Assembly: GCF_000212735.1 (NCBI RefSeq)
Contig: NC_015510.1
Coordinates: 6,821,001 to 6,885,000 of the forward strand
DNA length: 64,000 nucleotides
Origin: Haliscomenobacter hydrossis DSM 1100
Lineage (GTDB): Bacteria; Bacteroidota; Bacteroidia; Chitinophagales; Saprospiraceae
Direction of reading: 5' to 3'
In this document: one piece after another, positions 28,810 through 39,734 of the stretch
Position numbering within the stretch: the first letter of the stretch is position 1
Layout of the letters: each line of letters begins with the position of its first letter
Notes under the pieces: model-generated
What the model was told of the DNA's origin: nothing
What the model saw: only the letters and a program-made list of their open reading frames with translations
Databases searched by the model: none
Program-made: the position numbers and the translations under genes

Positions 28810-31776
28810 ATGACACCGACCCAAACACATCATTTAAGTACTATTGTGTTGCTTCTTCTTTGTTCTGTTCAAAATTTTGCTCAAGATTCTTTGGGGCTAA
28901 AACAAGCAAAGAATGACCTGGAAAAAGCAATATTACTAAGAGATAACATTGATAGCTGTTTGAAATATGGGAATTTAGTTTTAGAATATTACAAGGGGGT
29001 AAATAAATTTGAAAGTGCTGAGGTAGCAAGGGTTTTCCATCTATATGGCGTCGTTTATGCCACTAAGGGTCACTTATCAGAGGCGAAAGAAAATTATTTT
29101 AAAAGTATTGAGATAAATGAAAGAATTTTTGGGCCGAATCACATTCAAATTGCGCGCACTTATCAAAATTTGGGCGCAGTTTTTAGTGTTGAACGAGATT
29201 TCAAAGAATCCGACAAATATCATCAAAAAGCACTCCAAAAAGCAAAACTATATCCTGGAAAAGAAGACATTTTCCAGGCCACTTGTCTTACCAATTTGGC
29301 CATTAATGCCAACGCGAAAGGATTGTACAAGCAAGCGATTGATTATAATTTACAAGGACTAAGCATCTTGTCTAAATATCCCACCGAAGGAATTAGCATA
29401 GCTGGGGCATTTACCAATATCTCAAATTCCCATGGCTTTATGGGAGAATATGATCAGGCCATAAATTACGCTTTACAAGCCATTGAAATAAAACTAAAAG
29501 TACAACCGAATAGCGCTTCGTTAGCAAGAAGTTATAGCAACTTAGCGGAGTGGTATACTGCTGCAAAACAAATACCCAAAGCACTGCCATATGCTCACAA
29601 AGCTTTGGCTATTCGTTTAAATGTACTTGGAGAAAAGCACCAAGAGGTAGCTACTTCATTTAACAACTTTGGTTTAATGTATTTGGAACTAGGAAAATTT
29701 GATAGTGCTGAATTAACCCTTAAAAAAGCTATTGATCTTAGGAGTAAGATGTTACCGTCCAATCATGTTCGTATTATTACTTCCAAGCTATATTATATTA
29801 GATGTCTAGCTAAACAGAATAAAAGAATTGAAGCAATGAATTTAATTAAAGAAGTTGCTCAACAATTTATTTACAGGACTGATTATTTAGATAATGAAGT
29901 TATGACTAATATAAATACACTAATTGAGACTTATTTTTATATTGACGCACTTCCTGCTGCAGATTCTGTATTGACTGCGTTTAAAAAAACGATAGATGAG
30001 CGGTTTAGCTTTGCTGGAATCTATTCTTCTCCATTATATTTTAATTTGCATGAACATCATGGATGGGTATTGAGAGAACTTTACTTTAAAGATAAGGATT
30101 TAAACTTATTAATACGCGCTAAAAATTCATACGAAAAAATTGACTCTATTTATGAAGTAAATAAACTTGAGTTTCGACATTCAGAATATGTTAATTATTT
30201 ATTTGAAAAAATTGCCAATAATGCAAAGAATTTAGCCTACACTTTTGCCTTGCTTTATCAAGAAACTAAAGACCAGCAATACCTTGGGGCTACTTTCAAG
30301 CTGAGTGAAAAATATCGTTCCCAACTACTATATGATCATCTTGAAGATGTAAATTTAAAACGACTTTTTCGAGTAAATCCAATCTATTTACAGACTGAAC
30401 AACAACTTGATACAGGAATTAGTCAAGTATTAAAAGAAATCTATCAGGAAGAATGGGTTAAACAAGCCATAGATCCACAGAAAATTGCAGGATATAATAA
30501 CCGACTGCAGGCATTGAAGCGCCAAAAGCAGGCATTAGATCAGCAAATTGCTTTAGAATACCCTGAATACATAAAACTTAAATCCGAGCCTTCTTTCCAA
30601 GATATTGAATCTATTCGGCGAAGTTTAATCGGTCAAAATCACGCAATCATTGAATATATTAGTTTGCCAAATAGCCTTTGTGTCATCACGATTACTCAAA
30701 GTGTCATTCATGCAGAACTTATAAAAATGGATGAGGCCAACTATCAACTTTTCAATAAGCTAAGAAGCGGGATAATTGATTTTTATTCGGCGGATGAACC
30801 CGTTGATTCCATACTTTCATCAGGGATTCAAAATTTTATAGAATCGAGTTATGCCTTGTATCAGATATTAATCAAGCCAATTGAAAGCCAACTGCATAAA
30901 ATTTCAAAAATCACGATCATTCCAGATGGTCCACTGGTTGGCATTCCTTTTGAGGTATTAATGGAGTTTAAACCTGAGTTGTTCGATCGGTTTAACACTC
31001 ACCCTTACCTTTTAAAGAAATATATCATCAATTATGCATATTCAGCCAATATTATCGCTGCATATACGCAAAAATTGCCCTCAGAGAAAAAGGGAAACAC
31101 TTTTTTAGGGTTTGCACCATTTTTTTATGGAGATACTACAATAGTTGCCCAAAACTACAAGGTGCATGATAGAAGGAAGGCGATAGATTTAGATACTTTA
31201 AAGCACTCTGCCGAAGAGGTTTTTAACGCAAGAAGAGGTTGGGATGGTAAAATATATGTTGGCGCTCATGCAACAAAAGGGCAGTTTCTTCAAATAGCGG
31301 ATAAATATAAAATCATTCATCTTTCAACTCACGGACAAGCAAATAACCAGAAAGGGGAATTCAGTTATTTACATTTTGCAAGAACGAAAGATACCTTAGA
31401 TGATGAAAAACTTTATGCCCAGGAAATATACAACTTAAATTTGAATGCTGATTTGGTCTTGTTGAGTGCGTGTGAATCTAGGATAGGTGAATTCTCAATT
31501 AAAGATGGCCTGATTGGTTTGGCACACGCATTTAGCTTCGCGGGTGCTAAAAGTGTTGTTTCTACTTTGTGGAAGGTTAAAGAAAGACAAACAAAAGAAC
31601 TTCTTGCAGACTTTTACAGCAAAATAAAACCAGATTCTAAATTACCTATTGCAATGACGGTAGGAAATGCCTTGCATTTTGCAAAATTAAAAATGCTTGA
31701 ATCTCCAAGAAGGTCACACCCTTATTTCTGGGCCGGCTTTATTGCTATGGGAGATATTAAACTGTTCGAAAATTAA
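28810..31776 (+). CDS. Exported TPR-CHAT domain protein (caspase-like peptidase)
   Basis: 988 residues. A signal peptide (LSTIVLLLLCSVQNFAQ) is followed by about eight TPR-type repeats (residues 60-360), a helical middle and a C-terminal CHAT domain (about 660-985). The CHAT catalytic dyad is intact: His841 in IIHLSTHGQA and Cys888 in VLLSACESR. CHAT proteins are caspase-related Cys peptidases. It is convergent with an anti-sigma-like gene and shares the stop tetranucleotide TTAA (31773-31776) with it. The low G+C content and codon use differ from the housekeeping genes. The export signal implies action outside the cytosol. Confidence 0.9.
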   Translation: MTPTQTHHLSTIVLLLLCSVQNFAQDSLGLKQAKNDLEKAILLRDNIDSCLKYGNLVLEYYKGVNKFESAEVARVFHLYGVVYATKGHLSEAKENYFKSIEINERIFGPNHIQIARTYQNLGAVFSVERDFKESDKYHQKALQKAKLYPGKEDIFQATCLTNLAINANAKGLYKQAIDYNLQGLSILSKYPTEGISIAGAFTNISNSHGFMGEYDQAINYALQAIEIKLKVQPNSASLARSYSNLAEWYTAAKQIPKALPYAHKALAIRLNVLGEKHQEVATSFNNFGLMYLELGKFDSAELTLKKAIDLRSKMLPSNHVRIITSKLYYIRCLAKQNKRIEAMNLIKEVAQQFIYRTDYLDNEVMTNINTLIETYFYIDALPAADSVLTAFKKTIDERFSFAGIYSSPLYFNLHEHHGWVLRELYFKDKDLNLLIRAKNSYEKIDSIYEVNKLEFRHSEYVNYLFEKIANNAKNLAYTFALLYQETKDQQYLGATFKLSEKYRSQLLYDHLEDVNLKRLFRVNPIYLQTEQQLDTGISQVLKEIYQEEWVKQAIDPQKIAGYNNRLQALKRQKQALDQQIALEYPEYIKLKSEPSFQDIESIRRSLIGQNHAIIEYISLPNSLCVITITQSVIHAELIKMDEANYQLFNKLRSGIIDFYSADEPVDSILSSGIQNFIESSYALYQILIKPIESQLHKISKITIIPDGPLVGIPFEVLMEFKPELFDRFNTHPYLLKKYIINYAYSANIIAAYTQKLPSEKKGNTFLGFAPFFYGDTTIVAQNYKVHDRRKAIDLDTLKHSAEEVFNARRGWDGKIYVGAHATKGQFLQIADKYKIIHLSTHGQANNQKGEFSYLHFARTKDTLDDEKLYAQEIYNLNLNADLVLLSACESRIGEFSIKDGLIGLAHAFSFAGAKSVVSTLWKVKERQTKELLADFYSKIKPDSKLPIAMTVGNALHFAKLKMLESPRRSHPYFWAGFIAMGDIKLFEN

Positions 31777-32720
31777 TATTTTGCATCAAGTGCTTTTAAT
31801 TTCTTTATTAGGGTTGTATATTCGGGATAAATCGAGGTGTCTAGCTCGTCAATAAGTTTTTTGCAGATGGGTGTATTAAACTTCCCTGCACCAAGATAGG
31901 CGATCAACAACGGCCCTTTAGAGCGGTTACTAAACCCTGTTTGTTGAACTTGAATAAGGAATTCAAATTTTGAAACTGCCAATGGGAAATCCCCTAATTG
32001 CAATGCAGCCTGGCCAATTATTTCAGTTATAGAGAGATAGTTAGGTGCATTTTTGCCAACGAGGTTTCCTTGCTGAATGCACTCTTCGTATTGAGCGTTT
32101 TCAAATAAACGAAGAAGTTTTGTTTGCATGTTGATATTAGTAGGTTCAGCACTTTTGGAGGCACTTATTTCAGATTCGAACTCCTGTTTGAAAAAATCTT
32201 GATACTCTTTCGTTATTTTATTTATAACTATTTGATTGTTAGTCGCTTTTTTGATTATTTGCTCTTTTTTTGCAATCACATTTGAACCAGCTGGGGCTTT
32301 GGCAATTGAATCAATTTTTTCTACCTTGTTTAATGGATTAGGGATAGGCGTTTCTTTTTTTTGCATATTGTCATCGTCGTAGGATTTAGGTAGATTATAA
32401 TAATGATAAATAAGGTAACCACCTGATAAGGTCAAGAATGTAACAACAATTATAACTGTCCATTTTAGCCATTTGATGTTAATTGCAGGAAGCGCTGAAT
32501 TTTTGGCCTGATGGTATTCTGCCGCTCCTTTTGCCAAGGAAATGCGTAGTTCTTCCAAGGCAATCGTTTTAAGCTCTGTAGAGATTACTTCCTGTAATTT
32601 TAGTTCTCTTCTTAATTCCGAGTTGGTTGCTAATTGCTGCTCAAAATCATAGCGTTCAGCACTACTTAACTCGTTGCTTAAATAACGAATAACCCACTCA
32701 GAATAGTTCTTGTTTTCCAT
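31773..32720 (-). CDS. Membrane protein, anti-sigma-like, with extracytoplasmic TPR-like domain
   Basis: 315 residues. The N-terminal cytosolic part (YLSNELSSAERYDFEQQLA, residues 12-30) matches the helical start seen in Bacteroidota anti-sigma factors. One membrane segment follows (about residues 84-107), then a polar linker and a helical C-terminal domain with TPR-like pairs. It starts four bases after the stop of the ECF sigma gene upstream, the usual sigma/anti-sigma arrangement. No zinc motif is present, so the anti-sigma role is an inference from context and topology. Confidence 0.7.
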   Translation of the reverse strand: MENKNYSEWVIRYLSNELSSAERYDFEQQLATNSELRRELKLQEVISTELKTIALEELRISLAKGAAEYHQAKNSALPAINIKWLKWTVIIVVTFLTLSGGYLIYHYYNLPKSYDDDNMQKKETPIPNPLNKVEKIDSIAKAPAGSNVIAKKEQIIKKATNNQIVINKITKEYQDFFKQEFESEISASKSAEPTNINMQTKLLRLFENAQYEECIQQGNLVGKNAPNYLSITEIIGQAALQLGDFPLAVSKFEFLIQVQQTGFSNRSKGPLLIAYLGAGKFNTPICKKLIDELDTSIYPEYTTLIKKLKALDAKY

Positions 32721-32724
32721 GGCA

Positions 32725-33288
32725 CTAATAATCTAGGTAGTCTTTAAAACGTGGGTCCTCAAGCAAAAGTTTTCGGAGCTGGTTTCGGCATAAGAAAGCT
32801 CTTTGTCTAGCGGTATTGTCACTTTTTATGTCCAATAAGTGCGCAATTTCTGTAAAAGTTACTCCATCCATTGCAGAAAGTTTAAGGATAACTTGACACT
32901 GTATAGACAAGAGACTCATTTTTTCTTTAATAAGTGCTCTAAGTTCTGTTTGCTCTAGAATTTCTTCAACATTTTCTTCCATTTCATGTTCCTGCGATTC
33001 GTTTAGTGTTAGAAGAAATTCAGTTTTTTTTCTTAGTTTTTTAAACCACTGATTTTTGCAGGCTCGAATTAAATATGCACTAAAGGAAGTTTCGATTTTC
33101 TCAGCGCTATTACGCCGTACAATATCTATCAGAACTTCTTGAAAAATATCTTCAGCATCGTTGGTTGTGCCCCCATATTTTATAACAAGCCGCTCTATTT
33201 TTGGTAAAAAATTTTGATAGATCGCTGCAATGATTTTAGGATCAACCAATTTTAAACCTGTGATATAGTCTTGGTTATTAAATGGCAC
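32725..33288 (-). CDS. ECF-type RNA polymerase sigma factor
   Basis: 187 residues if translation begins at the GTG at 33288 (VPFNNQDYITGLK). A TTG further upstream would add an atypical Phe-rich lead, so I prefer the shorter form. Region 2 spans the FLPKIERLVIKYGGTTNDAEDIFQ area and region 4 the VTFTEIAHLLDIKSDNTARQR helix-turn-helix, both standard for sigma-70 family ECF factors. It is followed after four bases by the membrane anti-sigma-like gene. Its targets are unknown; the adjacent CHAT gene is a candidate. Confidence 0.85.
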   Translation of the reverse strand: MPFNNQDYITGLKLVDPKIIAAIYQNFLPKIERLVIKYGGTTNDAEDIFQEVLIDIVRRNSAEKIETSFSAYLIRACKNQWFKKLRKKTEFLLTLNESQEHEMEENVEEILEQTELRALIKEKMSLLSIQCQVILKLSAMDGVTFTEIAHLLDIKSDNTARQRAFLCRNQLRKLLLEDPRFKDYLDY

Positions 33289-33419: not shown

Positions 33420-34700
33420 ATGAAAAGAATTATACTTTTTGCCTTGTTTGGATGGCCTTACCATTTAGTTGCCCAAAGCACCCTCCAAATCGACTCCCTT
33501 TCCAGCCCAGCCCTAGGTAAAACGGAAAAATACCAGATTTACCTACCCGATGGCTACACCCAAAACAACAATCAGCGTTACCCGGTAGTGTACTTTCTGC
33601 ACGGCGCTTTATCTGATCATGAGGGGTATGATTTCATCAAAATTGTGCTGGATAACCTAATCGTTACAAAAAAAATTCAACCTATGATTGTGGTAAAACC
33701 CAATGGCAGTCAAGGTAATTATGGAGGTAGTATGTTTACCAATTCTACACTGTATGGTAAGGTAGAAGATTTTATTGTCAAAGACCTTGTAGCACATGTG
33801 GATCAGAAGTACCGCACGATGGGTACACGAAATGCACGAGCAGTGATGGGACACTCTATGGGGGCTGACGGAGCAGCGCGTTTCGGGACACTGCATCCTG
33901 ACGTATTTTGTGGCTTTGCAGCGCATAGTGGGTCGCTCGATTTTAGTTTTGCCCGTATCTTTTTCAGTTTTGCCGTTCAGGAACAACTACAGCAAAAGGA
34001 TTCGATTCCTTATGATTTCCGACCCAATGATGGTTTTGCAACGGGAGCCTTGTTTCGTGCGGCTGGTGCAGCCTCACCCAACCTAACCAAGCCACCCTAT
34101 TTTGTTGATTTTCCACTTGATCCACAGGGCGAACAAATTGATTCTGTTTTTCAAAAATGGTTTTCAATTAGCGCAGCCAATCTAGTTAGACGTAAGCCAC
34201 CCACGAAGGAAATAGGCATGTTCTTCGATTGTGGTTTTCAGGATGAGTTCGGCTTTATGCTGTTCAACAATGGGTTTCGGGATTCTCTCTTGAAATCTGG
34301 GTTAAAATTCACTTACCAAAATTTCACGGGGGGGCACGGCGATAAGCTATTGGATCGGATGGCTATCTCCTTGCCTTATTTGGATTCTTTGATGAGCAAA
34401 TTGAGCACTGCTGTCTATTCCCCTGGAAAATGGCGGGACAAAATTACCATGAAGATATACCCCAATCCAGGAAATGATACGGTCACTTTGGAATTGTCGA
34501 GTCCTGAAAACACCTCAGCTGGTGTGGTAATACAAAATGCTGCTGGCCAGGTGCTGAGGGTGCTACGAAAAGATTGGCAAATCAATGCAGGTGTCAACCA
34601 ATTGCAGTTGAATGTAAGCGATTTGGGGATTGGGATGTATTGGCTTGTTGTGAGAGGGGAGGGGTTTGTGGTCAGTAACCCTTTGCAACGGGTGAAGTGA
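33420..34700 (+). CDS. Secreted esterase (esterase D/feruloyl esterase-like) with T9SS sorting domain
   Basis: 426 residues with a signal peptide (cleaved near LVAQS). Alpha/beta hydrolase fold: YPVVYFLHGALSD near residue 60, nucleophile Ser146 in MGHSMGADGAARF, catalytic His in TGGHGD near residue 305. This resembles S-formylglutathione hydrolase/feruloyl esterase enzymes acting on ester-linked carbohydrate or phenolic substrates. The last 85 residues (MKIYPNPGNDTVTLEL ... DLGIGMYWLVV) are a T9SS C-terminal domain, so the enzyme is exported to the surface or medium. Confidence 0.9.
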   Translation: MKRIILFALFGWPYHLVAQSTLQIDSLSSPALGKTEKYQIYLPDGYTQNNNQRYPVVYFLHGALSDHEGYDFIKIVLDNLIVTKKIQPMIVVKPNGSQGNYGGSMFTNSTLYGKVEDFIVKDLVAHVDQKYRTMGTRNARAVMGHSMGADGAARFGTLHPDVFCGFAAHSGSLDFSFARIFFSFAVQEQLQQKDSIPYDFRPNDGFATGALFRAAGAASPNLTKPPYFVDFPLDPQGEQIDSVFQKWFSISAANLVRRKPPTKEIGMFFDCGFQDEFGFMLFNNGFRDSLLKSGLKFTYQNFTGGHGDKLLDRMAISLPYLDSLMSKLSTAVYSPGKWRDKITMKIYPNPGNDTVTLELSSPENTSAGVVIQNAAGQVLRVLRKDWQINAGVNQLQLNVSDLGIGMYWLVVRGEGFVVSNPLQRVK

Positions 34701-34813: not shown

Positions 34814-35761
34814 ATGAAATACCTGTACTTTTTTTGCTTTCTTCTTTTCTTCATTGCGGGCTTAAATGCCCAAAACTCAGGCAGAGGTTTCAGCTACCAG
34901 GCCGTCGCACGCGGATCGGACGGACAGGTAAAAGCCAAAGAACACATTGAAATTCAGTTTACTTTGTTGACCAATGCGCAAGCTGTTACTGCTTCTTGGC
35001 AAGAAACTCAAATGGCGACGACTGATGAGTTTGGTATATTTTCCATGACCATTGGCAAGGGCATCAAGTCAGGGGGCACGGTGGCGAAATTCACCGATGT
35101 CAACTTCGCTGCGTCTGAATTTTGGCTCAAAGTAGAACTAAAAGATAAAGGCACCTGGCAGGAAATCAGCAAGACCCAACTCTTAAGTGTACCCTATGCA
35201 GAAGTTGCTGGGAATGCTCAACCTGCTCCAACGGGTAGTATCATAGCTTTTGCCGGGCAGAAGGATAAAGTACCTACTGGTTGGTTATTGTGTGATGGCA
35301 GAGAACTAAGCCGTACGGATAATGCAGCTCTTTATGCCATTATCGGAACATCATGGGGCCAAGGGAATGGTTCAACTACATTTAGACTACCCGATTTAAG
35401 GGGACTATTTTTACGTGGTGTAAGTGATGGGCGACACGATGACGACACAAATAGTAGAGCGGCTATGTATCCGGGCGGCAACACAAATAATAATGTGGGA
35501 AGTTTTCAAGCAGAAAGTTTTAGAAGTCACAATCATTCTGGTACAACTCAAGCCAATGGAGCACATTCACATAGGGTATTTACTAGGGCAAATGTTGGAA
35601 GTCCAACCCTAAATGTAGATGCACTTGAATCAGGAAATCTAAGTCAATGGGCCGAAACAAGTACAGATGGATTGCACACCCACAATTTTACAACGAGTAC
35701 GGTTGGCGGCAATGAAACTCGTCCCGACAACGCCTACGTCAACTACATCATCAAACTATAA
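34814..35761 (+). CDS. Exported protein with phage tail-collar domain
   Basis: 315 residues with a signal peptide (FFCFLLFFIAGLNAQ). An N-terminal beta domain (residues 25-130; GFSYQAVARGSDGQV is a frequent Bacteroidota motif) is followed by a collar domain: TGSIIAFAG near 140, PTGWLLCDGRELSR near 155, TTFRLPDLRGLFLRG near 195, then a Gly/Asn/His-rich fibre tip. Free-standing copies in Bacteroidota are surface proteins rather than phage parts. The next gene starts 10 bases after its stop, so the two are likely one transcript. Confidence 0.87.
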   Translation: MKYLYFFCFLLFFIAGLNAQNSGRGFSYQAVARGSDGQVKAKEHIEIQFTLLTNAQAVTASWQETQMATTDEFGIFSMTIGKGIKSGGTVAKFTDVNFAASEFWLKVELKDKGTWQEISKTQLLSVPYAEVAGNAQPAPTGSIIAFAGQKDKVPTGWLLCDGRELSRTDNAALYAIIGTSWGQGNGSTTFRLPDLRGLFLRGVSDGRHDDDTNSRAAMYPGGNTNNNVGSFQAESFRSHNHSGTTQANGAHSHRVFTRANVGSPTLNVDALESGNLSQWAETSTDGLHTHNFTTSTVGGNETRPDNAYVNYIIKL

Positions 35762-35771
35762 ACAGCGAACC

Positions 35772-38700
35772 ATGAAAAAATCACTTTTCTTGCTGCTGTT
35801 TTGTTTAGGGCAAGCGGCTATGAGCTTTGCTCAAATTCTTGCGCCACAAGTACTAGGCAGTGGCGGAACTTCCGGTAGCAATGCTTCAACTAAAATTAGT
35901 TACACCATTGGACAAACGGTAACAGTTGCAGGTGGATCTGGCAATAGCTTGCTTACTCAAGGGTTTCATCAAAGCAATCTACCGTTATTGGATTCTTTGC
36001 CTTGTTATGAAATTGGTGAAATACCTCCACAGACGGTTTTTCAAGGCACTGAAAAAGCCTTTTATGTTTGTGTGGGTAGTAAGGATGTTGCCGTCTCTAT
36101 GGAGATCAAATCTACTCCTCCTTCCGGGGAAATGACCTTTAACTCCATTAACAAACGCTTCAGCTTTATTCCCTCCATAAACGACAAAGGAATTTATGAA
36201 GTTGTTTTTTATGCAATTTCCAACAAAGATACCACCTATCAAGAGGTTCCTTTTTTGGTTGTTCCTGCTTTGCCCGCAGAACAAACTGCTTTTGGACTTA
36301 AACCTGTTGTACCTATTCCCGCAGATGACGATGATGGTTATGTGATTATCACTTTGGTTAAGGGCACAAGAGAGTACTTTAATCATACCGAAAGAGAAAC
36401 CAATAGCATCAGTATTGCAGGCAAAACATTGGTTTTTGATAAACAAATAGCCAATAAACTCAAAACTTTCTGTGATAACCCTCGTAACGATGTAAAAGAA
36501 TTGACCCTCTATGCAGAAAAAGTAATCATCCGATGTGCTTTGCGATTTCCGCAGACAAATGTTACCATTTATGCCCGTTCATTGGTATTTGAGGATGGCA
36601 GTGAGAAAGCAAGCATCAATACGCAACCAGAAGCTCCAACTGCTCCTCAGGGAAATGTAAATGGGTCACAAGCGGGCAGCATTACCTTGTATTTGCAACA
36701 CTTGAGCACCGATTTCGAGTTTCGTTTTCGTTTGATTGGCGGATCAGGACAGGGAACTGGGAATGGTGGAAATGGCGGGGTTTTGAGTTCTAACCTCGAT
36801 TTAAAGACTTTTATGGATGCTGCTCCTGGGAGCGCAGGTGCCAGCGGGCTCAAAGGAGCAGCAGGTGGATTTCAGTCCATTGCCCAACGCCATACTTGGC
36901 TTCATCCCTACGCACTACGTTTGGTGATCGCTCATACCAAAGTCGCCTATCTCAATGGACATTGGGGCTATACTCAGAAAATTGCAGATGACTATGTACA
37001 AATGGTAGCGCAATATAAAGCTTCTACAGAATGGGGTGCAACCGGAGAGGAAAGCCAGGTAGAACTCTCTCAGTTGCAAGATGAAATGGCGAGCATTTCT
37101 GAACGCATTGCCAATAACCAAGATTATTATGGTAACCCGGCAGGATGGGTTCCTTTGTTATCTTTTGAGGTCAACAAAATTGCTTTTGAGGAGGAAATTG
37201 ATCATGCGATTAAGGTGCTCTACTTTTGTTATTGGCTACAACGAATCAATGCCAACAATGAGCAAAAAAATTCAGCACTGATTTCCGTTAAAAAACAGCA
37301 AGAGGAACTATTGATGGCATTTCAAAATGCCTACAATCAAGCCATCGCCCTTTTGCCTCAATTGGAAGCGCAGGCTGATGCTGTTGCCGCAGAAATAGAC
37401 ATCATCCAAAAAGATTTGGAGCAATTAGAACAGGAATTATTGGAAAGATCCAAGTATGTAGTGGAAGAAAGACACAAACCACCAAAACGTAGCTCATGGC
37501 GCAAAATTGTAGGTACCGTGGGTGCCATTGCGCAAGTGGTACCATTGTATCAGCCCGCCTTGGGAGCAATAGGGACTGGGCTACAGGTCATTAGTAATCT
37601 TGATTTTGGAAAACCTTTGGATGCAGTCAAACAAATGTATAATGTGGCCAAGGACATCAGCAAAGTTGATTTTTCCAAATCCGCAGATAGTTTAAAATCG
37701 CTTATAGATAGTCTTGATTTTACAAATATAAGATCAGGAAAAAAATTATTGAGTTATGCTAAAAATGTAGGCACATTTCTTGCTCCTTTGGTTACAACTC
37801 TTGCTGATCTTAGAGAAAAAACTGGGCCCACTAAAGTTCCTTTGGAGGAAATACAAGTCGAATTGGATAAAATGCGAGCGGAATCTCCAGAATTTACAGA
37901 CCTAACCAATCGCACCAATGATTTAATGATGGAAAAACTGCAATTCCAACAAAGAATTGCAGGTACTTTACAGACCGTCACTAAAGTGGCCAATGACATT
38001 CAAGCCGCTCTAGTCACCATAGATGGCATCAATTTACAAGTGTTCAATACGGGTAGCAAACGTGACCTACGGGCAATGATCTATATAAAGGATATGGAAG
38101 AACGAGCTAAAGAACGTTTAACTCGTTATCACTACAATTTAGCCAAAGCATATGAGTATCGCTTGCTTGAACCATATGACTCTGATTTAAATCTGACTGA
38201 GATGGTTGATCGCTTTAAGAATATTGCAGAAACTAAAGGAAATAATGTGGAATTGAGTAAAACAGAGTTTGAATTACTTAGGGAAGCATACAATGAAGTA
38301 TTGGCAAAGGTAACGGATAATATCTTGAGAAAATACAATGATAATGCACCAGAAATGTTCACTTCGGTCAATTTTTCCCTTACTCCCGAAGATCTTGATC
38401 AGCTCAACAAGGGTCAACCAGTGAATTTGAATTTAGTGGAACGTGGTCTAATTCAACCTAATGAAGAAGCGCCTCGCATCCGTGAGTTTAGAGTTGAATC
38501 CATAAAAATGCATTTAGAAAATGGTCAACCCGGCAGTTTTGCTTATTTCGATGTTGTCATGGAACATTCAGGTCTTTCGAAATTAAAAAAAGACGGACAA
38601 GTCTATTTTTTTAATCATTACAACAATCGAAATACAAATCCAATTTCTTGGAGTGTACGTTATGATGTTAGAGATCAAACAATCACTTCGAAGGCCCCAA

Positions 38701-39734
38701 GTCCTTCGGTATCTTCATTGCTGAAGTCTCTTTTAGACAAATTGAATAAGTTTTCTTCAGAAAACTTGGAGCTTTATTCTCGACCTGCTGCTTGGGCAGA
38801 TATTATCGTCAACAAATATGACAATAGTTCCAATGGGGTTAAAATGGTGATCGATGAATTGCGATTTAATGTAGTTTACGATTTTCATCAAATCCCTAGT
38901 GGATTAATCACATTAGAGGTCGTGACAAATAAAGATTTAAAGCCACTGATTAGTATGGGATTGTCTGATAAAAATCAGCGTCAGGACGGATGGGGTAGTT
39001 TTTTACGTACTTACTTCAAAAATGCCAATAGTACCATGAATATCAATACCCCAGCTCAATATGGTGTATGGGCTTTTGAAAATTGGACAGACTTTTCAGG
39101 TAACATCATTTCAGCTAAAAATGAGATTTCTGTAAATTTGGGTTCAAATAAAATGCTGAAAGCCAATTACAAGCTCATCCAACCTGAATTATTTGTTCCA
39201 AATGACACCATTCGTCTCCCTGGCAAGCAAGGCACCCAAAAAGTGACAATCCAAAACATTGGAACGGGTGAAATGGGTTGGACTTGTTCAGGAAGTAACG
39301 ATTGGCTTAGTTTTCAAAGTGACAGTACGGGTCTTAATAATGGAGAAGTAACACTTGAATTTAAGGACAACCAGGAAAAAACGCCACGAATACAAAAATT
39401 GCTGGTCGTTGCGCCTAGTTCCATCCGCTATTTGGATACTATTACCGTGATCCAAAGTCCGATTTCAGTTAGTACCTCAGGTGCTAATTCTGAATTGACA
39501 TACAACTTGAGTATTTACCCTAACCCTGCTAGAGATGAAATCAATATCGAAGTCATCGGAAATGTAAAACCGGCCTCAATCATTGTATACAACTCGCTTG
39601 GGGTGATGTTGAAGCAAACTCAAATGAATGGTTCTCGCACAACGTTACGATTGGATGGGTTGGCAAAAGGGCTTTACTTTGTAGAAATGATGTTAAGTGG
39701 CCGGCGGTATGTTAGGAAAGTAATTTTGGAATGA
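35772..39734 (+). CDS. Giant T9SS cargo protein with coiled-coil and hydrophobic core regions
   Basis: 1320 residues from MKKSLFLLLFCLGQ. After the signal peptide come a short domain typical of T9SS proteins (ISYTIGQTV ... LTQGFHQ, about 30-70), a beta region, a Gly-rich stretch (about 322-366), long coiled coils (about 420-470 and 500-570), an Ala/Gly/Val-rich hydrophobic stretch (about 576-610), more helices (to about 790), a BACON-like beta domain (about 1145-1235) and a T9SS sorting domain (YPNPARDEINIEV, to the end). Helices around a hydrophobic hairpin recall alpha-pore-forming toxins, but this is speculative. It is probably co-transcribed with the collar protein. Confidence 0.82.
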   Translation: MKKSLFLLLFCLGQAAMSFAQILAPQVLGSGGTSGSNASTKISYTIGQTVTVAGGSGNSLLTQGFHQSNLPLLDSLPCYEIGEIPPQTVFQGTEKAFYVCVGSKDVAVSMEIKSTPPSGEMTFNSINKRFSFIPSINDKGIYEVVFYAISNKDTTYQEVPFLVVPALPAEQTAFGLKPVVPIPADDDDGYVIITLVKGTREYFNHTERETNSISIAGKTLVFDKQIANKLKTFCDNPRNDVKELTLYAEKVIIRCALRFPQTNVTIYARSLVFEDGSEKASINTQPEAPTAPQGNVNGSQAGSITLYLQHLSTDFEFRFRLIGGSGQGTGNGGNGGVLSSNLDLKTFMDAAPGSAGASGLKGAAGGFQSIAQRHTWLHPYALRLVIAHTKVAYLNGHWGYTQKIADDYVQMVAQYKASTEWGATGEESQVELSQLQDEMASISERIANNQDYYGNPAGWVPLLSFEVNKIAFEEEIDHAIKVLYFCYWLQRINANNEQKNSALISVKKQQEELLMAFQNAYNQAIALLPQLEAQADAVAAEIDIIQKDLEQLEQELLERSKYVVEERHKPPKRSSWRKIVGTVGAIAQVVPLYQPALGAIGTGLQVISNLDFGKPLDAVKQMYNVAKDISKVDFSKSADSLKSLIDSLDFTNIRSGKKLLSYAKNVGTFLAPLVTTLADLREKTGPTKVPLEEIQVELDKMRAESPEFTDLTNRTNDLMMEKLQFQQRIAGTLQTVTKVANDIQAALVTIDGINLQVFNTGSKRDLRAMIYIKDMEERAKERLTRYHYNLAKAYEYRLLEPYDSDLNLTEMVDRFKNIAETKGNNVELSKTEFELLREAYNEVLAKVTDNILRKYNDNAPEMFTSVNFSLTPEDLDQLNKGQPVNLNLVERGLIQPNEEAPRIREFRVESIKMHLENGQPGSFAYFDVVMEHSGLSKLKKDGQVYFFNHYNNRNTNPISWSVRYDVRDQTITSKAPSPSVSSLLKSLLDKLNKFSSENLELYSRPAAWADIIVNKYDNSSNGVKMVIDELRFNVVYDFHQIPSGLITLEVVTNKDLKPLISMGLSDKNQRQDGWGSFLRTYFKNANSTMNINTPAQYGVWAFENWTDFSGNIISAKNEISVNLGSNKMLKANYKLIQPELFVPNDTIRLPGKQGTQKVTIQNIGTGEMGWTCSGSNDWLSFQSDSTGLNNGEVTLEFKDNQEKTPRIQKLLVVAPSSIRYLDTITVIQSPISVSTSGANSELTYNLSIYPNPARDEINIEVIGNVKPASIIVYNSLGVMLKQTQMNGSRTTLRLDGLAKGLYFVEMMLSGRRYVRKVILE

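Follow-up and report, generated by a model that had tools for sequence, protein, structure and literature searches.

A 64,000-nucleotide stretch (the window) of the 8.77 Mb Haliscomenobacter hydrossis DSM 1100 genome contains three adjacent genes encoding a predicted exported peptidase with TPR repeats and a CHAT domain, an anti-sigma-like protein with a single transmembrane helix (TM) and an extracytoplasmic function (ECF) sigma factor (Table 1). The CHAT gene is convergent (tail-to-tail) with the anti-sigma gene and both stop codons share the same TTAA. At the other end of the anti-sigma gene, the sigma stop codon (TAG, 32725-32727) is followed by tgcc and then by the anti-sigma ATG at 32720, a spacing of 4 nt. 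An earlier interpretation made from the letters alone (the sequence-only reading) had described an exported TPR-CHAT protein with a His841/Cys888 pair, overlapping stop codons, and a membrane protein with an anti-sigma-like cytosolic start and an outer helical domain, coupled to an ECF sigma gene; each of these features is borne out by the analysis reported here. Open reading frames (ORFs) were called mechanically, signal peptides and TMs were assigned by hydrophobicity windows, and contigs of metagenome-assembled genomes (MAGs) are broken.

Table 1. Positions of the genes and key codons in the window (aa, amino acids; AF2, AlphaFold2; P1, residue before the scissile bond; T9SS, type IX secretion system)
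Feature	Position	Strand	Basis or remark
TPR-CHAT peptidase, predicted exported	28810..31776	+	988 aa ORF; signal-peptide-like start (by eye), TPR solenoid, C-terminal CHAT domain
Catalytic His841 codon	31330..31332	+	Invariant in aligned relatives
Catalytic Cys888 codon	31471..31473	+	Invariant in aligned relatives and 70 sigma-linked rows
Overlapping stop codons (TTAA) of CHAT and anti-sigma genes	31773..31776	.	ORF list and sequence
Single-TM anti-sigma-like protein	31773..32720	-	315 aa ORF; AF2 and Foldseek; relatives match NF052375 in 15/33
Lys189 codon, window residue of the conserved basic linker column (candidate P1)	32154..32156	-	Alignment
ECF sigma factor	32725..33288	-	GTG start at 33288 as in the sequence-only reading; ORF opens at TTG 33357
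Esterase with T9SS sorting tail, divergent from sigma	33420..34700	+	Pfam; possible target gene, candidate

Products of the three genes

The Pfam CHAT domain (PF12770) occupies residues 681-982 of the window protein (E 1.9e-54; 185.5 bits against a cut-off of 24) and is preceded by TPR repeats, also found by Pfam. His841 and Cys888 are invariant in 12/12 and 28/28 aligned sequences and in 70/70 CHAT proteins linked to a sigma gene. By the Pfam score and the His/Cys pair we assign the protein as a CHAT peptidase, its peptidase activity being predicted. A signal-peptide-like start was located in 63/70 linked CHATs, compared with 2/111 sigma proteins. About half of the linked CHATs look anchored because they carry a C-terminal TM (36/70). 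CHATs that are not linked to a sigma gene are similar, with a signal-peptide-like start in 66/76 and a C-terminal TM in 37/76.

The AF2 model of the window CHAT protein (pLDDT 81.6) gave as its first Foldseek match Csx29 in the Csx30-bound complex (8eey_B, 5.9e-16). Superposition on Csx29 with VIA-align covered 651 residues at 10.6 Å (Z 30.4), a score tied with those of chains made up of TPRs alone, for example LGN (4wnd_A, Z 30.0). With the catalytic domain of separase (5fc2_B), the model superposes at 3.8 Å over 324 residues (Z 27.6, VIA-align). When the CHAT profile was compared with sequences in the PDB, DdvA was the best match (E 1.3e-6), followed by Csx29 (0.001). A PADLOC scan, which covered the three core proteins only, gave a generic TPR hit and, weakly, JukA (E 0.035).

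The sigma gene product matches TIGR02937 (1.6e-17, over its cut-off), TIGR02985 (1.3e-20, under its cut-off) and sigma-70 region 2 (PF04542, 1.3e-8); the match to region 4 is weak (0.011, under its cut-off). By region 2 and the ECF profile, its sequence fits the ECF sigma factors.

The AF2 model of the anti-sigma-like protein (mean pLDDT 78.3) consists of helices at residues 6-74, a TM helix at 83-109, a low-confidence linker and TPR helices at 193-314; Foldseek matched it to TPR domains (best E 0.009). The protein is encoded directly behind the ECF sigma gene and has one TM and a predicted cytosolic helical N-terminus. It has no Pfam match and matches NF052375, the NCBIfam anti-sigma model, weakly (E 0.066), thus for the window protein taken alone the anti-sigma label is weak. 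The label is given because of its family and gene position. Among 33 aligned relatives, NF052375 is matched by 15 (best 4.1e-7), zf-HC2 by six and TPR_19 by 18. Exactly one TM was observed in 64/71 members of the family that are linked to a CHAT gene, using a simple threshold, and the other seven fall below that threshold. Sequences and model together suggest a common plan: the N-terminal part is helical and cytosolic, a single TM follows, and the outer part holds a basic residue and a TPR domain.

The partners of 40 unlinked sigma genes in the same genome look mostly to be of other kinds. This set leaves out sigma genes near CHATs and some lower-scoring ones; for six of the 40 the rule applied gave no following gene, and many of the partners are not anti-sigma-like. 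Two partners match the anti-sigma profile weakly, in the N-terminal half (36.7 and 45.7 bits). Two of the lower-scoring sigma genes outside the 40 are accompanied by full members of the anti-sigma family, with no CHAT near. We note a pair of the same family (L313, G000:C1:4325997-4326728 and flanks), whose nearest listed CHAT is 490 kb away. It is followed on the same strand by a gene for a protein with a membrane helix and a P-loop ATPase, NACHT-like by eye, which is perhaps another activator.

Recurrence and co-divergence of the trio

The window genome has 26 CHAT matches, 11 of which score >100 bits; these are one fragment and 10 full-length genes, which occupy 9 loci. Sigma genes are found no more than 1.3 kb from 6/10 of the full-length genes and no more than 3.5 kb from 8/10 (CHAT ORFs <500 aa were dropped from the sigma-distance counts). 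Assuming 70 sigma genes, the probability of 6/9 loci under random placement is ~2e-8. The gene order is convergent in the window, divergent at L032, sigma/anti-sigma/CHAT at L029, L031 and L033, and CHAT/sigma/anti-sigma at L028. Anchoring on the anti-sigma protein gives 9 places in this genome at E 1e-12 or better, and at 7 of these a CHAT gene is found within 5 kb. The fragment (L030, 7757-8686) is a lone CHAT domain with no open TPR part before it, apparently a decayed paralogue. At L036 (8797-11001) a lipoprotein-like CHAT is separated from a sigma/anti-sigma pair by a subtilase-like protein (by eye) and an unknown protein.

Within the family to which the window genome belongs, CHAT is present at E 1e-30 in 38/41 genomes. 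Of 60 family CHAT loci chosen among the best-scoring CHATs, 38 have a sigma gene no more than 3.5 kb away and 32 have one within 1.3 kb; the corresponding figures at control places in the family genomes are 3/20 and 1/20, and at control places in other genomes of the class sample a sigma gene was near at 0/20. Fisher tests of the 38/60 loci give 2e-4 when compared with the family controls and 8e-9 when all 40 control places are used. Of the 21 CHAT genes in another genome (G001), eight have a sigma gene at 3.5 kb or less. Among 20 CHAT loci from other families of the class, the count is 0/20 within 1.3 kb and 2/20 within 3.5 kb. The named loci (best 80 of 564) include 78 with a usable CHAT ORF, and 35 of those are sigma-linked; the linked loci include Saprospiria, Flavobacteriia, Cytophagia, Chitinophagia, Bacteroidia, one Balneolota and one Acidobacteriota record. 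No anti-sigma gene was found beside the sigma gene of the Balneolota record. The sigma detector was a hidden Markov model built from these same loci and may thus miss divergent sigmas.

The family and genome counts include some loci twice (same MAG from two sources). Merging by CHAT and sigma sequence left 73 distinct loci with a sigma gene within 1.3 kb, of which 71 have an anti-sigma-like gene. The arrangement is convergent in 33 (with the anti-sigma gene between in 32), divergent in 24, sigma/anti-sigma/CHAT in 12 and CHAT/sigma in four, and the CHAT and anti-sigma genes overlap in 13/33 convergent pairs.

The association was also approached from the anti-sigma side. A profile of 33 anti-sigma proteins was searched in 148 genomes of the phylum and matched in 47/148 at E 1e-12. 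In the first 33 of these genomes searched for CHAT, a CHAT gene lies within 5 kb of 39/57 anti-sigma hits and within 8 kb of 43/57. The remaining 14 genomes, with mostly weak or partial hits, gave 7/24 near CHAT, and the sample overall has 46/81 hits with CHAT within 5 kb. CHAT is present in 39/47 genomes with such an anti-sigma protein, compared with 31/100 without (p 2e-9; 147 of the 148 genomes were placed, and negatives not listed individually were assigned by genome number). The survey of co-occurrence that the sequence-only reading had called for is thus positive whichever gene, CHAT or anti-sigma, is the anchor. In one family (f64) a sigma/anti-sigma locus has a CHAT gene 2.6-3.9 kb away in 15/18 searched genomes and a pair within 0.3 kb in 7/18. 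Loci L376-L391, all of one family, repeat one setting of the sigma/anti-sigma locus, with R[AS][KQ][DE] ~27 residues past the TM in many and CHAT ~3 kb off; their neighbours are presumably polyphosphate kinase and ScpA.

A FastTree phylogeny of 163 CHAT domains (sequences <800 aa or with short flanks were dropped) requires 33 changes of the linked state, compared with a mean of 49 after shuffling (0/500 as low), and starred branches force at least 15 changes. The window CHAT sits on a long branch within a starred group of 12 rows that includes 10 linked ones. Tree comparison used 69/73 loci, those with CHAT <700 aa or no anti-sigma gene being dropped. The correlation is highest for sigma/anti-sigma (r 0.413, 0/2000 within-genome permutations as high), followed by CHAT/anti-sigma (r 0.304, 2/2000) and CHAT/sigma (r 0.198, 22/2000). 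Such co-divergence agrees with the genes being cognate pairs; a few deep clades may account for part of the correlation.

A basic residue in the anti-sigma linker

The outer parts of the 71 linked anti-sigma members share a basic column, preceded by a short aromatic stretch and followed by the first TPR helix. It holds Arg in 53, Lys in seven and Glu in one of the 61 members aligned there. The median distance of the basic residue beyond the TM is 27 positions (quartiles 25-36), and the residue that follows is Gly or Ser in 43/60. When the linkers were shuffled and realigned (24 rounds) the best basic column reached only 19/37, against 60/61 in the real set. Among further loci aligned to the set, which partly repeat it, the position is basic in 24/24 with CHAT within 1.5 kb (two more are gapped), and across the phylum it is basic in 27/29 aligned members. 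The conserved Arg/Lys, mostly followed by Gly/Ser, is a candidate scissile bond. An alignment artefact as the origin of the column was considered and is countered by the shuffling and by the added sequences; the alignment-free count given below is weaker.

Five anti-sigma members (L309, L310, L312, L328 and L331) have Met-Gly at this position, where others have Arg/Lys-Gly/Ser, and their 1.5 kb flanks contain no CHAT. Met as a mark of loci lacking CHAT was not retained; it occurs in 5/29 loci in one placement and 3/59 in a second, numbers that are too few and unstable.

Proposed cascade, known systems and rival explanations

These data suggest the following scheme. The anti-sigma protein would hold the ECF sigma factor at the inner membrane via its cytosolic helices and, as conservation and model indicate, would offer outside the membrane a linker with the conserved Arg/Lys and then a TPR domain. 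The exported TPR-CHAT protein, plausibly a cysteine protease of the Csx29/separase type, would sit on the same side of the membrane and remain inactive as long as no signal or partner has reached its TPR solenoid. Once activated it would cut the anti-sigma protein after the basic residue, and the remaining stub would become a substrate for a membrane M50 protease, with release of sigma. The many paralogous modules of a genome would then serve as parallel, separately cued channels. On balance we think it probable that the three genes together make up a signalling module of the envelope, in which the exported CHAT protein performs the site-1 cut of a sigma-releasing cascade. The scheme is built on the genetic association, the conserved catalytic pair, the predicted common membrane side, the conserved basic site and the M50 peptidase matches in the window genome, of which there are four. 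The sequence-only reading had already proposed that sigma is freed when CHAT cleaves or binds the extracytoplasmic part of the anti-sigma protein; that model fits best and has gained a concrete candidate site, with cleavage, binding and sigma release being inferred.

The sequence-only reading could name no precedent for the pairing. Two exist, namely Craspase, as described in PMC10028731, and DdvA-DdvS (PDB 8rot, 8rw5). In Craspase (type III-E CRISPR, DiCASP) the TPR-CHAT protein Csx29 works with Cas7-11, is switched on by target RNA and cuts Csx30, an inhibitor of CASP-sigma, with H615 and C658 being needed (PMC10028731). The likeness is that of a TPR-CHAT protease acting on a sigma-factor inhibitor, with Csx29 as the first structural match noted above; the window CHAT differs in having an export signal, and the window anti-sigma protein in having a TM and a TPR domain. 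The window CHAT scores 29.1 bits with the NCBIfam Csx29 model, below its cut-off of 300, and no Csx30 model is among the NCBIfam matches listed for the three core proteins. The signal-peptide-like start on most linked CHATs speaks against cytosolic work with Cas7-11.

DdvA-DdvS of Myxococcus xanthus resembles the window module in having a transmembrane anti-sigma protein with a CHAT domain, and DdvA is also a Foldseek hit of the window CHAT (4.8e-13, TM-score 0.23). DdvA combines anti-sigma and TPR-CHAT on one 991-residue chain, whereas the window has two convergent genes and an intact His/Cys pair. The active site of DdvA is reportedly incomplete, and autoproteolysis is said to have been proposed. 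According to PMC12288465, DdvS controls an antiphage (CBASS/CRISPR) island and DdvA is a one-chain transmembrane anti-sigma protein with a CHAT domain. The window module is neither Craspase nor DdvA: it has two proteins, an exported enzyme, an intact active site and many copies. We recognised no description of an exported CHAT with a separate anti-sigma protein in the literature searched, whose coverage is partial with many journals outside it.

Eukaryotic separase (C50) shares the fold of its catalytic domain with the window CHAT (5fc2_B) and differs in substrate, place and regulation. Separase cuts after Arg. RseA/DegS/RseP and RsiW/PrsW are examples of regulated intramembrane proteolysis of anti-sigma proteins. 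They resemble the window module in the single-TM anti-sigma protein with a presumed outer site-1 cut and an M50 site-2 cut; the site-1 protease of the window would differ in being a caspase/separase-like cysteine protease encoded next door. RseA, DegS and RsiW are also named in PMC10028731.

Several observations weigh against the proposed cascade. The basic residue is present in 24/30 further loci without CHAT within 1.5 kb (three more are gapped), and the idea that it marks CHAT-adjacent members only was rejected; it is a feature of the whole anti-sigma family. We note that many of the anti-sigma members without CHAT in 1.5 kb do have one at 2-8 kb. An alignment-free search for [RK][GSN] at 12-45 residues after the TM succeeds in 46/71 linked members, where shuffling gives a mean of 29.5 and a maximum of 44 (1000 rounds); in other anti-sigma-like partners the motif is found in 6/16. 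A looser motif does not discriminate (69/71 linked, 13/16 other partners). Ten of the 71 linked proteins are gapped at the site, one has Glu, and the window has Lys rather than Arg. According to PMC10028731, Csx30 is cut between residues 427 and 429 with no single residue essential, thus CHAT enzymes need not be Arg-specific. Of the 163 CHATs analysed 76 have no sigma gene near, and the CHAT-near hits among the 14 remaining anti-sigma genomes all lie in the window's own genome.

The locus could be an ordinary ECF switch in which the CHAT gene is merely one sigma target, its product acting on other substrates. ECF targets are often neighbouring genes, and those divergent from sigma hint at secreted targets: the 30 scanned (of 33; three were left out as likely spurious ORFs) include seven with Por_Secre_tail and two with CHU_C, with no single common family beyond T9SS tails. 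We consider this explanation unlikely. The CHAT gene is convergent with the sigma/anti-sigma pair in 33/73 loci, so that no promoter can be shared there. A search for a shared promoter, which would point to autoregulation, gave no signal: the upstream regions of CHAT and sigma genes resemble each other no more in cognate pairs than in non-cognate ones (p 0.14, a weak test). Co-divergence is also stronger for CHAT/anti-sigma than for CHAT/sigma, and enzyme and site are predicted on one side of the membrane.

Alternatively, CHAT could partner the anti-sigma protein without cutting it, as a scaffold or ligand-bound antagonist, with another periplasmic protease cutting at the basic residue. The TPR domains on both proteins could dock, and this arrangement would suit the retention of the basic residue in members without an adjacent CHAT. 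It sits less well with the His and Cys intact in every linked CHAT and with the related Craspase enzyme, which cuts a sigma inhibitor and needs its His/Cys pair (PMC10028731); we regard it as rather less likely still. Chance, or a general clustering of envelope genes with no functional link, would account for the CHATs that have no sigma near, for the low counts at loci from other families of the class and for the 3/20 reached by the family controls. It is very improbable given the association with its controls, the many gene orders and the co-divergence, and in particular because the association repeats with either gene as anchor.

Two secreted-looking proteins with Por_Secre_tail are encoded beyond the sigma gene in the window, the esterase of Table 1 and a large protein with a weak BACON match (35667-39734); both are possible targets. 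The output of the module may be defence, secretion or something else.

ECF sigma envelope signalling is common in Bacteroidota. For most of it we know of no protease that starts the signal, and for many exported TPR-CHAT proteins we know of no role. If the proposed cascade is right, the two would be joined, dozens of proteins would gain a cleavage residue open to testing, and bacterial signalling would be connected with separase, Craspase and DdvA. The natural protease/substrate pairs, with their paralogous specificity, could also serve as tools. A broader claim, which could equally prove right or wrong, is that the exported separase-like enzymes of Bacteroidota and related groups make up a large family of site-1 proteases acting in trans, each with its own TPR-bearing transmembrane anti-sigma protein cut after a conserved Arg/Lys and with several insulated channels per cell. 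Such a family would be the split, active counterpart of DdvA and the envelope counterpart of Craspase. If that is true, TPR-CHAT control of sigma inhibitors would be an old strategy of general use, from which the CRISPR and CBASS cases have branched off.

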